Below, one piece after another: positions 36,622-42,557 of a DNA stretch of 64,000 bases (positions are counted from its first letter, which is position 1; the number at the start of each line of letters is the position of its first letter). The DNA is from Oenococcus kitaharae DSM 17330. Lineage in GTDB: Bacteria; Bacillota; Bacilli; Lactobacillales; Lactobacillaceae. Location: contig NZ_CM001398.1 of assembly GCF_000241055.1 (NCBI RefSeq), positions 1,289,163 to 1,353,162 of the forward strand. The letters run 5' to 3'. The notes beneath the pieces are model-generated. The model saw only the letters and a list, made by a program, of their open reading frames with translations. It searched no databases and had not been told where the DNA came from. The position numbers and the translations under genes are program-made.

Positions 36622-37558
36622 GAACGACTCCTGGACCGGGCTTTTGAATTAAAATTTCGCCAAAGTTTTTCAACTGGTCAGCGACTTTTTGACAAGACCG
36701 GCTATCAGTAATCACTTTAACGTTTGGCCCGGCATCAATCGTTGCAAATGCTGGAATACCGGCATGGTAAAGACGATGTATGTCATTGATCACGGCCCAA
36801 GTCTCGCCGGCAAAATAGTCAAAAGGCTTATCAGCGCTGCGATTGAGTGCGTGCATCCCCATGGCGTTTCGTTCAGCAATCAGGCCGATTTTTTCAATAT
36901 CCTTGTTTTTGATTGCAGCTATCATTTCCCTGATTTGCATTTTACTCTGTGAAAGCCAATTTGAGTAGTCAGGCGAGCTTTGGGCACGCTGCATGCCTTG
37001 GCTGGAAGGGATTTTTTTTGTCTTTTTGTCTGTCAAAACATCGATGACACGAATGCCAAAGTCGACCGGGTCTAAAATACTTTGTGCAAAAGAGCTCTGA
37101 TGATCATACCCTTGATACCAAATCGAAAAGCCGCCATAGACAGAGCGGCTGGCTGAACCAGATCCAAGGCGTGCCAGACGAGAAAGGGACGGACGGTCAG
37201 TTGGCAGGCCGTAACTATCGCTGGCTGCTAATGCAAAAGCTGCAAAAGCTGAGGCAGAAGAAGCTAATCCAGCTGAATTCGGCACGTGATTTTCACTAGT
37301 GATCTTGGCATACTTGTGGCTGCCAGTCTGCTGACGCACAAAATCCAGTACTTTTATAATTCGAGGATTGCTGGCGAGCTGACCGTCTAAAATGAACTGA
37401 TCCTGCTTGAGATCATCGGTTAAGTCAACACGCGTATCGGTATACAGCTGATCTAAAGTCAGGCCAATTGAACTGCTGGTTGGCAGATTCCAAGTGATGT
37501 CCGATTTTCCCCAATATTTAATTAAAGCGATATTTGTATAGGCGCGTGCTTGAGTCAT
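36614..37558 (-). CDS. mvaD: MvaD, diphosphomevalonate decarboxylase
   Basis: MvaD converts mevalonate diphosphate to IPP with ATP. The 314-residue GHMP-superfamily protein starts MTQARAYTNIALIKYWGKSD. It has VPNSAGLASSASAFAAFALA near residue 90, LGSGSASRSVYGGF near residue 135, and TIDAGPNVKVI near residue 275. Length and motifs are typical. It starts one base into the mvaK1 stop (TAATG) and overlaps mvaK2 by 8 bases. Confidence 0.95.
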   Translation of the reverse strand: MTQARAYTNIALIKYWGKSDITWNLPTSSSIGLTLDQLYTDTRVDLTDDLKQDQFILDGQLASNPRIIKVLDFVRQQTGSHKYAKITSENHVPNSAGLASSASAFAAFALAASDSYGLPTDRPSLSRLARLGSGSASRSVYGGFSIWYQGYDHQSSFAQSILDPVDFGIRVIDVLTDKKTKKIPSSQGMQRAQSSPDYSNWLSQSKMQIREMIAAIKNKDIEKIGLIAERNAMGMHALNRSADKPFDYFAGETWAVINDIHRLYHAGIPAFATIDAGPNVKVITDSRSCQKVADQLKNFGEILIQKPGPGVVHV

Positions 37559-38478
37559 TATATTTTTGAAATCCAGCTGCCGGTCGCACCGGATTGTGAC
37601 AAGGCGCTCTTAATCTGATTAGCGGTTTCTTTATCACTTGCTAAAGCCACGATGCTACCGCCTAGGCCCCCACCGGTTAATTTAGCTCCAAGTGCACCAT
37701 TTTTAATCGCGATTTTGATTAATCGTTCCAGATAGGGTGTTGAAACACCTAGTTGTGCGAGCAGTTTTTGATTGCGGGTCATCAAATCTCCGAAATCCAC
37801 TAAATCACCGGCAATGATTTCTTCACGGCCGCTTTCAGCAATGGCGCCCATTTCCTTAAAATAACTGCCGTATTTTTTTGGATCTCTATGATAATTATCG
37901 GCGACTAATTTGACAGCTTGCGAAGTGAGGCCGGCTGTTCCAGAATCGGCGATAACAATATAGGCTTCCGTGTCGAGCTTTAAAATAGTTGCGTCTTTGC
38001 TGCTGTCAAAAAAAATCGGCCCGTCCGCCATAACTGCATAAGTATCGCCGCCCGATGATTTGCCATGATTTTTGTTTTCTGCAATCTGAGAAAAGTTATA
38101 GACCTCCTCGTCGCTGTATTGATAATCAAAAAAGTCAAAAAAGGCTTTCGTGATGGCGACTGAATAGGCCGCTGAAGACCCGAGGCCTTTTTTTGAAGGG
38201 ACATTTGATTTGATATGTAGTTTAAAGGGTAAATCAGGCTGCTGGAAAAATTTCAGCAGTTCGGTCAATAGGCTGTAGATGCCGGAAAAACGATAATTCA
38301 ATTGATACATGGTGCCAGAAAAATTATCTGTTTCAATTAATGTCTGGTCAGAACTGATGACCTCTGCCTTGCAATTCAAACTCAATAATGGCGCGATAAT
38401 TGCAGGATAACCGTAAACAACCGAATGTTCTCCTAAGAGATGTGCTTTTGCGTGTGACTGTCCAAATCCGAAATTCAT
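37558..38478 (-). CDS. mvaK1: MvaK1, mevalonate kinase
   Basis: This is the first gene of the mevalonate operon, which supplies isoprenoids such as undecaprenyl phosphate. The 306-residue GHMP kinase shows AHLLGEHSVVYGYPAI near residue 10, the ATP loop PSKKGLGSSAAYSVA near residue 95, and KLTGGGLGGSIVAL near residue 268. No Shine-Dalgarno is seen before the ATG; TACAAT on the - strand (38491-38486) ends 7 bases upstream, so the mRNA may be leaderless. It is divergent from the DinG-like gene, 36 bases apart. Confidence 0.95.
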   Translation of the reverse strand: MNFGFGQSHAKAHLLGEHSVVYGYPAIIAPLLSLNCKAEVISSDQTLIETDNFSGTMYQLNYRFSGIYSLLTELLKFFQQPDLPFKLHIKSNVPSKKGLGSSAAYSVAITKAFFDFFDYQYSDEEVYNFSQIAENKNHGKSSGGDTYAVMADGPIFFDSSKDATILKLDTEAYIVIADSGTAGLTSQAVKLVADNYHRDPKKYGSYFKEMGAIAESGREEIIAGDLVDFGDLMTRNQKLLAQLGVSTPYLERLIKIAIKNGALGAKLTGGGLGGSIVALASDKETANQIKSALSQSGATGSWISKI

Positions 38479-38485
38479 AATACTA

Positions 38486-38507
38486 ATTGTAGTAAAAAAG
38501 GTAAAAT
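38486..38507. promoter_or_regulatory. Back-to-back promoters mvaK1 / dinG-like
   Basis: On the - strand TACAAT (38491-38486) ends 7 bases before the mvaK1 ATG. On the + strand TAAAAT (38502-38507) ends 7 bases before the ATG at 38515. Both genes would be leaderless, and their polymerase footprints overlap. Confidence 0.5.
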
Positions 38508-38514
38508 TTTGTAG

Positions 38515-39975
38515 ATGGATGAAAAATCAACTTTTGCAATTGTGGATCTCGAGACGACCGCGCCATTCAAAGAGGGCGGCCATATCATTCAAATCGGCAT
38601 TAGTTTTGTACAAAATTGGAAAATCATCAATAACTTTCAGACCATGGTCAATCCAGGCGTCCGGATTCCGCCGCAGATTGTCGAACTGACTGGGATTCAA
38701 AACGCTGATGTTCAAGATGCGCCCTACTTTGAGGATCTAGCTTTAATGATACATGAGCAGCTGGCCGGCACGGTTTTTGTTGCACATAACGTTCACTATG
38801 ATTTTCCTTATTTGAATGGTGAATTTTCGCGAATTAAGATGCGGCGTTTGCGTCTGGAATCAGTCGATACGGTTCAACTGGCACAGATTCTTTTCCCGAC
38901 GATGCCAAGTTATAAATTAGACGAATTGGTCGAAAATCTTGGCATCACACTTCCCAGACACCACCGCGCCGATCAGGATGCTTATGCGACGGCGCAATTG
39001 TTTTTAAAACTGCATGACCGGATGGCGTCGCTTTCGCAAAATACTTTGAAAAATCTATCGGCCTCATCTTCAACACTGATCGGCAATACGGAAAATCTTT
39101 TCAGTCTGGTTAAGGGCCAGCCAAAATTCAAGGGCAGCCACTATAAAGAACTGGATCTTTTACAAGTACACCGGGCAAAGGCAGATGATCTGCATGCATG
39201 GCTGACGGAAAAACGGCGTTTTTTGACTCGCAAGACACCTGTGACAGCTGTTTTAAGGCCCCGACAGGAAAGTTTTGCCAATATTTTTCTCTCCAAACTC
39301 AAAAAGGGCAGTTCAAAAACTTTTTCTGTCTTCTCGCGTCCGCGTTTTGGCAAAAGCAATGCTTATCTACTGCTGGCAGAGAAGTTGGCAGCAAAGCGCG
39401 CAAAAGTCTTGATTATCGAAGAGGACCCGCAAAGAAAAAAGCTCGTATTTGAAAAATCCCAGCTGCTGATGCCAGAAAAGCGCAGTTTGTTTGCTAACCC
39501 AATCAGCCGCAAAGATTTTATCAGCTTGAGCAAATTCAGGGAAGCTTTGGCAATTGAAGACAGCCCGACAAAACAATTGGCCAAGCTGAGGCTGCTGGTC
39601 TGGCTGACAGAGACAAAAAGCGGCAACTTGAATGAAATCGTTAATGGTTTTCCAGAATCTTTATACAGCCTATTTGCCGATCAGACGTCACCGGATACCT
39701 TTGATTATTTCAAAGCTGGCACGCATGATTACGAGTTTCCAGATATCGCGATCACCGATTTGGCGAGTTTTCTCGTGACTAAGCATGAATTTCTGTCCTA
39801 CTATGATTATTTGATATTCGATATCGATAAAGGTGTTTCTGATCTGGCTGATTTGGCTGGGAACATCGATAAGACGAGTATTATGTTTACACAGGCGAAA
39901 GATTATTTGAAAAATTGGTATTCAAGTCGGGAATTTCCCGATCTGGCTGCCACGATTTTATCTTTGAAACAATGA
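38515..39975 (+). CDS. DinG-like exonuclease with a degenerate helicase half
   Basis: This 486-residue protein has an N-terminal DnaQ-type 3'-5' exonuclease: FAIVDLETTAP (Exo I), VFVAHNVHYDFPYLNGEF (Exo II), HHRADQDAYATAQLF (Exo III). The remainder follows the DinG helicase layout but is decayed. The Walker A site reads FSRPRFGKSNAYLL, the region that should hold DEAH reads YYDYLIFDIDKG, and the chain stops about 440 residues before the end of a full Firmicute DinG (about 930). Gene order (next ypmB, asnS, dnaD) matches the Bacillus dinG locus. It is probably an exonuclease without helicase action. Confidence 0.8.
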   Translation: MDEKSTFAIVDLETTAPFKEGGHIIQIGISFVQNWKIINNFQTMVNPGVRIPPQIVELTGIQNADVQDAPYFEDLALMIHEQLAGTVFVAHNVHYDFPYLNGEFSRIKMRRLRLESVDTVQLAQILFPTMPSYKLDELVENLGITLPRHHRADQDAYATAQLFLKLHDRMASLSQNTLKNLSASSSTLIGNTENLFSLVKGQPKFKGSHYKELDLLQVHRAKADDLHAWLTEKRRFLTRKTPVTAVLRPRQESFANIFLSKLKKGSSKTFSVFSRPRFGKSNAYLLLAEKLAAKRAKVLIIEEDPQRKKLVFEKSQLLMPEKRSLFANPISRKDFISLSKFREALAIEDSPTKQLAKLRLLVWLTETKSGNLNEIVNGFPESLYSLFADQTSPDTFDYFKAGTHDYEFPDIAITDLASFLVTKHEFLSYYDYLIFDIDKGVSDLADLAGNIDKTSIMFTQAKDYLKNWYSSREFPDLAATILSLKQ

Positions 39976-40015: not shown

Positions 40016-40528
40016 TTGAACAACTATTCGACAATCCAAAATGCAGAACGATCAAATAAAGCCCACCGACTTGCGATTATTGTCGGTATCGGTATTTTTT
40101 TGCTGGTTTTGATATCTGTTTATCTTTTCATTATTCTGCTGCCTAGCAGAGATGATGCTACGCGTTTTTCCTCTTTGGCACAATCTGAGGCCGGCATTAC
40201 AGGTGTTAGGGCTTATAAAGCGTCGGACCGCAACGGCAATTATTATTCGATATACGGCGATAATAGCAAGGGAAAAGAGTATCTGGTCATTTTTAATAGC
40301 AAAGAGAAGCTGGTTCGCCGAATACCAGTGAGCCAGCAGGTATCTAACAGCCGGTTGGATCAGATTTACAAAAAATACCGTGTCCACAACGTTTATTCTT
40401 TTGCACCATCGATTTACAAAAAGCGGCCGGTATTGGAATTGAGTTATGAAGGACAGAATCAGTCCCTTAATTATCTGACAATTGATTTGAAAAGCGGCAA
40501 GGTTTATCGTGTGATCGAAGGTTTATAG
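40016..40528 (+). CDS. YpmB-like membrane-anchored protein (DUF5590/PepSY-like)
   Basis: This 170-residue protein has one N-terminal transmembrane segment (about residues 20-42, LAIIVGIGIFLLVLISVYLFIILL) and an extracellular domain with repeats of the PepSY-like type. It ends LNYLTIDLKSGKVYRVIEGL. Position between a dinG-like gene and asnS is as in Bacillus ypmB, though aspB is missing here. The frame opens with TTG at 40016. TATAAT at 39995-40000 gives a leader of only about 9 bases. Confidence 0.7.
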   Translation: MNNYSTIQNAERSNKAHRLAIIVGIGIFLLVLISVYLFIILLPSRDDATRFSSLAQSEAGITGVRAYKASDRNGNYYSIYGDNSKGKEYLVIFNSKEKLVRRIPVSQQVSNSRLDQIYKKYRVHNVYSFAPSIYKKRPVLELSYEGQNQSLNYLTIDLKSGKVYRVIEGL

Positions 40529-40546
40529 TGTTTTCAGGGAGCATTT

Positions 40547-41854
40547 ATGTCAGAAGAAATAAAAGTTATCAGAATTGAGGATGTCCCTCATTTTGTCGGA
40601 CAGACAGTTAAAATCGGTGTCTGGTTGAGACAAAAGCGGGGAAGCGGAAAAATTGCTTTTCTCCAGCTGCGCGATGGCACTGGATTTATGCAAGGTGTCG
40701 TCGTTTCAGCAGATGTGGACGAGGCGCTTTTTAAATTAGCCGAACATCTCAAGCAGGAGAGCAGTTTTTATGTGACGGGTGAGATTCACGAAGATTCCCG
40801 CAGCAGTTTCGGCTATGAAATGGCCGTTTCCGCGATCGACATGGTCGGCGAGTCGGAAGGTTATCCGATTACACCTAAGGAACACGGCACTGATTTTCTC
40901 TTTGACCAGCGCCATCTATATTTGCGCCATCAAAAGCCCTATGCGACTTTGAAAATTCGCGATGAAATCATTCGTGGCATTTATGATTTCTTTTATCAGG
41001 ACGGTTTTTTGAAATTTGATTCGCCAATCTTGACTGATTCAGCACCGGAAGGAACCACTGAGCTTTTTCCTGTTGATTATTTTGACCAGACAGCTTATTT
41101 GTCTCAGACCGGTCAATTATATGTTGAAGCTGGCGCAATGGCCTTTGGCAAGGTTTATGATTTTGGGCCGACTTTTCGTGCAGAAAAATCTTCCACGCGC
41201 CGCCATTTGACCGAATTTTGGATGATTGATGCCGAAATGGCTTGGATGCACCAAGAACAGTCTTTGGATGTTCAGGAACGGATGATTGCTTATCTGATTC
41301 AGCGAGTTGTTGACAATTGCCAGACTGAACTAGAAATGCTGGGCCGTGATGCCGACAAATTACGCAGTTACACAAAGCTGCCTTTTCCGCGTGTCAGCTA
41401 TGACGACGCCGTCAAACTGCTGCAGGACAATGACTTTGATATCAAATGGGGTGTCGATTTTGGTTCGCCGGAAGAGACCTTTTTGGCTAACTACTACAAG
41501 ACACCTTTCTTCGTTGTGAACTTTCCTAAAGCTATCAAGGCTTTCTACATGAAACGTCATCCGACACGCGATGATGTCGTGATTTCGGCTGATTTGATGG
41601 CTCCTGAGGGTTATGGCGAGATTATCGGCGGCTCTGAAAGGGATACCGATTATGATTATCTCAAACAGCGCCTGATTGATCAGCATTTGGACTTAAAGGA
41701 ATACGATTGGTATCTTGACTTAAGGAAGTACGGCTCTGTGCCACATTCCGGATTTGGTTTGGGCCTGGAACGCTTTATTCGTTTTGTGGCTGGCGAGGAT
41801 CATATCCGTGAGACAATTCCGTTCCCAAGAACCCTGAATCGTTTGCATCCCTAA
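40547..41854 (+). CDS. asnS: AsnS, asparaginyl-tRNA synthetase
   Basis: This 435-residue class IIb tRNA synthetase attaches Asn to tRNA-Asn. The N-terminal OB domain is [26 protein letters not shown]. The catalytic core has motif 2 [28 protein letters not shown] near residue 205, and motif 3 [13 protein letters not shown] near residue 405. AGGGAG at 40536-40541 is the ribosome site. No T-box leader is present in the 18 bases before it. dnaD follows after one base. Confidence 0.96.
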
Positions 41855-41855
41855 T

Positions 41856-42557
41856 ATGGACGACGGACTAAAAAATTTCTTGGCTCAAGGCAATGTCGAA
41901 ATCCCATTGAGGCTGTTTCAAAACTACCATCAGCTCGGTCTCAGCAATGAGGATTTTGTTGTCTTGATTCAATTAATGGCTTTTCAAAAAGAAGGCGTGG
42001 CACTCCCGGATGCTCAGCGTATTTCGGCGAGGACGAATTTTTCTCAGCAGGCTGTTCAGCGCGATATTGAAAAACTGCTGACGCATCACTTCATCGCTTT
42101 GTCCGCGGACAATGATGCCTATGATTTCACGAATTTATTTCAAAAACTCATTGGCAGCGGAGCTGACGATACGGTAGCTTTCTCTTCACTGGACAATAGC
42201 TTGGATCAAACGGGGACAAAAAAACAGCTTTATCAGCTTTTCCAACGTGAGTTTGGTCGTCTACTGACACCGATGGAACTGCAAACCATTTCTGAATGGC
42301 TGAAAAAGGACAAATTTAGCCCTGAATTAATCGTTACGGCGCTAGGCCAGGCTGTTAATGCTCAGATATTAAATCTGCGTTATATCGAAAAAATACTCCT
42401 GAATTGGAAGAACAGCCACGTGCAGACAAAAGCACAGGCTCAAGCTGATAACCTGCATCATCGTCAGCAATTTGCTGAGATGCCACACGGAGCCAAACTG
42501 CCGCAAACTAAAAAAGGCCCGACTATCAAAATTCCCCTGAAAAAAATTGGCGAATAA
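41856..42557 (+). CDS. dnaD: DnaD, primosomal replication protein
   Basis: This 233-residue DnaD-family protein has an N-terminal winged-helix part (LGLSNEDFVVLIQLMAFQKEG, ARTNFSQQAVQRDIEKLL). A C-terminal DnaB/DnaD domain follows (LYQLFQREFGRLLTPMELQTISEWLKKDKFSPELIVTALGQAV, then LRYIEKILLNWK). It helps load the replicative helicase. Downstream in Bacillus come nth and ypoC; here a terminator and the convergent pbp1A follow at once. Confidence 0.9.
   Translation: MDDGLKNFLAQGNVEIPLRLFQNYHQLGLSNEDFVVLIQLMAFQKEGVALPDAQRISARTNFSQQAVQRDIEKLLTHHFIALSADNDAYDFTNLFQKLIGSGADDTVAFSSLDNSLDQTGTKKQLYQLFQREFGRLLTPMELQTISEWLKKDKFSPELIVTALGQAVNAQILNLRYIEKILLNWKNSHVQTKAQAQADNLHHRQQFAEMPHGAKLPQTKKGPTIKIPLKKIGE

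Follow-up and report, generated by a model that had tools for sequence, protein, structure and literature searches.

Does a helicase-nuclease gene that has lost half of its length drift as a fossil, or does what is left still work? The question is raised by a dinG-like gene at 38515-39975 (forward strand) of a 64,000-nucleotide stretch of Oenococcus kitaharae DSM 17330 (contig NZ_CM001398.1, positions 1,289,163 to 1,353,162), the whole of which is called the window here. The open reading frame has 486 codons, starts with ATG and encodes 486 amino acids. A preliminary description of the sequence presented the product as a DinG homologue reduced to its exonuclease half and followed by a fossil helicase. 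The evidence assembled below points to an orthologue of ExoDinG, the exonuclease-helicase DinG of Bacillales and Lactobacillales, which has probably become an ATP-independent 3'-5' exonuclease with a basic, selected remnant of motor domain 1 that holds the strand or shapes the exonuclease. Proteins in which the helicase motor motifs are lost are termed motorless, and dN/dS denotes the ratio of nonsynonymous to synonymous substitution rates.

Exonuclease domain and motor-domain remnant

The protein matched TIGR01407 (DnaQ exonuclease / DinG helicase; 889 model positions) with 277.1 bits over residues 6-412, without reaching the curated cut-off of 547.7 for this equivalog (dinG_rel). Its nearest solved structure by sequence was the Staphylococcus aureus DinG chain 8zef_A (E 5.3e-46, residues 5-390). 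The gene is preceded by a divergent mvk gene starting at 38478 and followed by ypmB-asnS-dnaD. The order mvk<>dinG-ypmB-asnS-dnaD was found in the window and in six other Oenococcus genomes (in G001, mvk and dnaD run off the contig ends) and was shared by full-length dinG loci, for example those of G030, G036 and G026, so that the locus comparison indicates orthology with the ExoDinG locus of Lactobacillales. The profile and structure matches and the shared synteny uphold the dinG origin that had been proposed from the gene order. The protein was divided as follows.

38515..39054, + strand: DEDDh 3'-5' exonuclease domain, residues 1-180 (Pfam RNase_T; catalytic residues invariant)
39055..39249, + strand: linker, residues 181-245, the fastest changing part between the Oenococcus genomes G006 and G002 (identity comparison)
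39250..39972, + strand: what is left of helicase motor domain 1, residues 246-486 (TIGR01407 matches as far as residue 412; dN/dS 0.088)
39337..39360, + strand: remodelled motif I (Walker A), RPRFGKSN (genus and motorless-row alignments)
39574..39639, + strand: pseudo-iron-sulfur (pseudo-FeS) segment, containing LRLLVWLTETKSGNLNE (W363 and G370 unchanged throughout alignments A1 and A2)
39820..39834, + strand: former DEAH box, now DIDKG (alignment and sequence)
39835..39972, + strand: C-terminal tail after motif II, residues 441-486 (hhalign)

Above the Pfam cut-offs the exonuclease alone was recognised (RNase_T and DEDDh_C), with RNase_T at 1.1e-27 over residues 9-163. The catalytic set of this N-terminal DEDDh exonuclease is complete and, as had been described, its motifs are intact: D11, E13, H91, D96, H150 and D155 were invariant in all seven rows of the seven-genome Oenococcus alignment and corresponded by alignment to D10, E12, H90, D95, H149 and D154 of S. 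aureus DinG (PMC12345164; this and the other studies of DinG relatives cited here are represented by excerpts). Scans of viral contigs gave no homologue for A1 and 18 loci for A2, all of which matched only within residues 1-200.

The helicase half has kept less. Motif I, mostly EA[PA]TGxGK[ST] in intact relatives, reads FSRPRFGKSN in the window protein, with Arg in place of the TG glycine. The change to RPRFGKSN had been reported correctly, but the loss it implied is incomplete, as the GK[ST] of Walker A is present in 7/7 Oenococcus rows and it is the glycine preceding it that has gone. On these alignments Walker A reads as remodelled and not erased. The best conserved helicase stretch was the pseudo-FeS segment. 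The DEAH box (Walker B) has been replaced by DIDKG, in agreement with the preliminary description; its counterpart is DVDK or DVGK in G006, G002 and G003, and DEAH is absent from G001 and G004 too. The protein ends 46 residues past this site, with no Arch domain and no second motor domain (PF13307) carrying motifs V and VI. When the tail was compared by hhalign, the region directly colinear past motif II scored P 0.11 and motif IV scored P 0.14, and one alignment put the tail on motif IV; a simple truncation is preferred to an internal deletion that would have fused motif II with motif IV. The aligned intact relatives have frames 935-949 amino acids long, so about 450 residues are missing, close to the 440 or so originally estimated.

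Compared with ExoDinG (S. aureus DinG, PDB 8zef; Bacillus subtilis DinG; Listeria Lmo1899), the Oenococcus protein therefore has the same DEDDh exonuclease with all catalytic residues, the same colinear motor domain 1 and pseudo-FeS segment and, in the Lactobacillales examined, an orthologous locus, but it lacks the DEAH box, motifs III, V and VI and a recognisable Arch or second motor domain, and has 486 residues instead of about 900-960. As DinG descent is combined with the absence of the features that define the helicase, it is classed as a motorless ExoDinG derivative. It resembles the short-type DinG (sDinG) of the excerpted review PMC11981726 in being a short DinG-like protein that is thought not to be a traditional helicase.

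One possible use of the altered motif I is that of a nucleotide sensor, in which the GK[ST] loop would turn the exonuclease on or off by binding a phosphate ligand, such as ATP or ADP, that it does not hydrolyse. R277, F278, G279, K280 and N282 are invariant in 7/7 Oenococcus rows in spite of identities to the window protein down to 32%, binding without hydrolysis is what the loss of Walker B would lead one to expect, and S. aureus DinG is less active as a nuclease and binds DNA less when ATP is present (PMC12345164). However, Arg at the position of the P-loop glycine before x-GK[ST] may block the nucleotide, the authors of the S. aureus study favour metal chelation as the cause of the nuclease inhibition with reduced DNA binding as a possible contributor (PMC12345164), and in the excerpted Listeria report repression by ATP was not seen (PMC12774634). 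A sensor is accordingly regarded as rather unlikely, though worth keeping in view.

The region beyond the exonuclease is basic in all seven Oenococcus rows (isoelectric point, pI, 8.5-9.8), as it is in the other motorless rows (7.5-9.7), and strand or DNA binding by the remnant would be compatible with this charge. The remnant could instead serve chiefly as a platform for protein interaction, for example with RecA, polymerase or ribosome factors. RecA and PolA are interaction partners of B. subtilis DinG (PMC12525004), but the sequence points to no partner, and we consider a platform function improbable.

Purifying selection on the remnant

Synonymous sites were saturated in every between-species Oenococcus pair except G006-G002, dinG dS being above 1 or infinite, and this pair was the one used for rates. 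Identity between G006 and G002 was 0.97 over residues 1-180, 0.72 over the linker and 0.84 over residues 246-486, with dN/dS of 0.018 for residues 1-180, 0.103 for residues 181-486 and 0.088 for residues 246-486. The ratio of the proportions of nonsynonymous and synonymous differences (pN/pS) over residues 246-486 was 0.148 (bootstrap 0.103-0.210). In the same pair the neighbouring genes gave dN/dS of 0.024 (mvk), 0.039 (asnS), 0.068 (ypmB) and 0.086 (dnaD). A helicase part evolving at the rate of dnaD does not fit the label of a fossil, and by these ratios the remnant is under purifying selection comparable to that on its working neighbours. The suggestion that it might have taken on a new role is supported as a possibility. 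Between the two O. kitaharae genomes dN/dS over residues 246-486 was 0.038, from very few changes, and the other genus pairs gave pN/pS of 0.33-0.51 over the same residues.

Six pairs of motorless proteins were consistent with this result, residues 181-480 having dN/dS of 0.071-0.151 in 6/6. That the residues beyond the exonuclease are far from neutral evolution is well supported by these rates. The same region was faster than the exonuclease in all six pairs, by 2.45-8.52 times, the lower bootstrap bounds being 1.21 or more. Among four pairs of intact proteins from genus g19 this ratio was infinite in two because the exonuclease had no amino-acid changes, and was 1.12 (0.39-3.61) and 0.93 (0.55-1.91) in the others. 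The comparison with intact relatives is therefore weak, and a fall in the relative constraint on this region when the motor was lost is suggested rather than shown.

If the gene were a pseudogene in decay, the exonuclease alone would matter and the remnant would be drifting. The stepwise loss of the helicase motifs and the faster change of residues 181-480 are in line with such drift, as is the last stretch of the G001-G004 pair, where identity was 0.14 over 29 codons and the very C-terminal end appears weakly constrained because pN/pS reached 0.87 (bootstrap 0.61-1.57). Against it stand the low dN/dS of residues 181-480 in all six motorless pairs, the equality of the remnant with working neighbours in G006-G002 and a frame that stays open past the exonuclease, as had been noted for the window, in all seven Oenococcus genomes. 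Decay is thus held to be very improbable.

Truncation in Oenococcus and motif loss in sister genera

All 60 genomes compared, including that of the window, had a match to the window protein. The frames in the seven Oenococcus genomes were 486, 486, 489, 489, 486, 479 and 467 amino acids long; the G001 frame includes a leader and falls to 463 once trimmed to the homologous start, giving a genus range of 463-489. G001 and G004, which are only 65% and 68% complete, were 32-33% identical to the window protein, while the second O. kitaharae genome, CRBO2176 (G005), had 100% rounded identity over residues 1-486 with two residues differing in the alignment. The reduction is thus real and not peculiar to the window's genome, being shared by 7/7 Oenococcus genomes.

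The preliminary description had named a helicase hidden downstream by a frameshift as one finding that would overturn it. This was looked for and not found: only 40 bases lie between the stop codon of dinG and the ypmB frame, and PF13307, the DinG-type C-terminal helicase domain, was absent at E 0.001 from the window's genome (1,842,138 bases, 2 contigs), so that no frameshifted remainder is seen. Relocation of the helicase half elsewhere was rejected for PF13307 in the same genome and, at the same threshold, in all seven Oenococcus genomes (0/7). A sequencing or assembly artefact can be set aside as next to impossible, since nothing was found in its favour and the frame has the same 486 amino acids in both O. 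kitaharae genomes (G000 and G005) and 486-489 in three further Oenococcus genomes, in addition to the short spacer and the missing domain.

A survey of the family covered 396 genomes at least 90% complete, with a DinG match counted at E 1e-28 and PF13307 at E 1e-20. DinG was matched in 393/396 and PF13307 in 353/396. Thirty-nine of the 43 genomes without PF13307 at this threshold belonged to six genera that all had a DinG match: Oenococcus (g1, 5/5), g2 (12/12), g7 (2/2), g8 (1/1), g17 (17/18) and g56 (2/2). The remainder were g10 (2/2) and two genomes of g24 (G029 and G271); this breakdown comes from a by-eye comparison of the DinG and PF13307 result rows. The g2 and g17 genera and their allies are presumably the Leuconostoc-Fructobacillus group, and g19 Weissella. 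Open DinG frames of g2, g7, g8, g17 and g56 were 792-831 amino acids long among the matches listed.

The motifs of 40 aligned DinG proteins were inspected, 26 of them from these six genera (seven from Oenococcus and 19 from the sister genera). Motifs II, III, V and VI were absent or unrecognisable in 26/26, and so were destroyed in all 19 of the sister-genus proteins of about 800 amino acids. The P-loop glycine was replaced by Lys or Arg in 21/26 motorless rows, giving [RK]-x-GK[ST], preceded by Pro in g7, g8, g17 and five of the seven Oenococcus rows and by Ala in g56. The five g2 rows had neither Lys nor Arg at this position, and KKT, RKT or GQT followed. The sister-clade proteins thus share with that of Oenococcus the locus, the lost motifs and purifying selection, and the 14 inspected g7, g8, g17 and g56 rows, unlike the five of g2, share the loop as well; they differ in retaining about 300-340 residues more.

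In a tree of AsnS (34 rows), which is independent of dinG, one branch (support 95/89) set 24/24 motorless rows apart from the rest, and their sister was intact g19. With a midpoint root and long rows for G001, G009 and G041, this makes a single origin possible rather than proven. The tree fits a loss of the motor in one event in the common ancestor of Oenococcus and the five other genera, before the genus arose, and we read the truncation as a later step within the Oenococcus lineage.

Several genomes depart from the general pattern. Among the 18 g17 genomes, G307 alone matched PF13307 at E 1e-20 (6.4e-29), and its own dinG frame of 814 amino acids is without helicase motifs. In G013 (g8) a weaker PF13307 match (4e-10) lay in a separate frame of 180 amino acids on a different contig. 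The two g10 genomes (G015 and G075) had neither a DinG match at E 1e-28 nor PF13307 at E 1e-20, and their DinG seems to have been lost outright or to be very diverged. DinG frames with broken motifs I and VI were also seen in G029 (g24; L045:4335-6893, 853 amino acids) and in G041 (g36, another family; L050:4730-6835, 702 amino acids), apparently independent losses of the motor.

The neighbours in the window are listed below; the names ypmB, asnS and dnaD are those of the preliminary description, and the divergent gene is one that we take to be mvk.

37558..38478, - strand: mvk (mevalonate kinase), divergent neighbour, at the same position throughout the genus and at full-length dinG loci
40016..40528, + strand: ypmB, downstream neighbour (locus comparison)
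40547..41854, + strand: asnS, downstream neighbour (locus comparison)
41856..42557, + strand: dnaD, downstream neighbour (locus comparison)

The ypmB-asnS gap (40529-40546) is about 1.2 kb, room for one gene, in several relatives (e.g. G012, G022 and G026), and the gene filling it is presumably aspB, to judge by the gene order of B. subtilis. No such gap separates the two genes in Oenococcus, G024, G030 or G036, where they are directly adjacent. At 38465-38544 the 36-base divergent spacer between mvk and dinG was nearly invariant, together with both gene starts, in G000, G002, G003 and G006; around the dinG start 30/30 positions were kept in these four genomes in the stretches -30 to -1 and -20 to +9, and farther windows fell to as few as 14/30. 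By eye, this spacer contains TAAAAT and, on the other strand, TACAAT, each finishing 7 bases ahead of an ATG, an arrangement that overlapping divergent leaderless promoters would fit. A consensus scan called the TACAAT site for mvk and did not call the TAAAAT site.

A probable motorless nuclease and its possible tasks

For the activity, substrate and fold of the protein and the role of the remnant we infer the following course. In the ancestor that Oenococcus shared with its sister clade, the motor would have ceased to hydrolyse ATP and to translocate, motifs II, III, V and VI being destroyed and the P-loop glycine being replaced by Lys or Arg in most members. The Arch and second motor domain would then have been deleted in the Oenococcus lineage. 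To judge by the relatives in S. aureus, B. subtilis and Listeria, the exonuclease would trim single-stranded 3' ends of DNA or RNA. Because the remnant is kept by selection without a motor, it probably has a task that needs no ATP power, and together with the pseudo-FeS segment it would most likely hold the substrate strand or shape the exonuclease without ATP turnover.

The properties of these relatives suggest likely tasks. The S. aureus enzyme acts as a 3'-5' exonuclease that depends on metal, and the contacts with DNA that were observed are made by its Exo domain and motor domain 2 (PMC12345164). Listeria DinG retains exonuclease activity when its DEAH box is mutated, and clears unprocessed rRNA (PMC12774634). 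The B. subtilis enzyme digests 3' tails as well as the RNA strand of hybrids and, in the excerpted study, showed no robust helicase activity under the conditions its authors used (PMC12525004). Transferred to Oenococcus, the task could be the removal of defective rRNA precursors or the trimming of ends at R-loops and stalled forks. No description of a motorless Oenococcus DinG was found among the papers listed by a weak search of titles and the starts of abstracts, in which 'ding' may match an author name. The O. kitaharae genome paper (PMC3250461) never mentions DinG, and the main text of PMC11981726 mentions neither Leuconostoc nor Oenococcus.

Several observations weigh against a strand-holding remnant in a working nuclease. 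Intact rows had pI values of 5.4 to 9.4, some being as basic as the motorless ones. Six channel residues have been named for S. aureus DinG (K336, K338, K385, K389, H428 and H431; PMC12345164), and five of these, K336, K385, K389, H428 and H431, correspond to I, G, S, S and V in the window protein, leaving K338 -> R332 as the sole basic counterpart, in a correspondence read by eye from alignments. A single-sequence AlphaFold model with a mean predicted local distance difference test score (pLDDT) of 33.9 was meaningless, so that a folded remnant gets no structural support. The saturation of all genus pairs except one, the weakly constrained C-terminal end in G001-G004 and the wide intervals for the four g19 pairs restrict the argument from selection. 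In S. aureus, resistance to crosslinks also depends on both activities of DinG, nuclease and helicase (PMC12345164), and loss of the motor is therefore not harmless for every DinG task.

A broader version of the motorless nuclease extends it to the whole clade, whose DinG would have been converted into a nuclease with the former ATP-binding domain as a guide that binds phosphate or nucleic acid through the [RK]-x-GK[ST] loop, Oenococcus having trimmed the rest. This is put forward tentatively and is doubtful as a whole; if true, it would provide a natural series of intermediates from a motor to a passive substrate clamp.

The helicase activity of S. aureus DinG is disputed, being absent according to the excerpted review PMC11981726 and present according to PMC12345164. 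The motorless clade is a natural experiment on the disputed role of the ExoDinG helicase half, in which the motor has been discarded while the nuclease and one motor fragment have been kept under selection, suggesting that the selected task is nucleolytic. It also displays, with recorded steps, the stepwise loss of a motor in a paired enzyme, and the small Oenococcus protein is suited to asking what motor domain 1 contributes without ATP.
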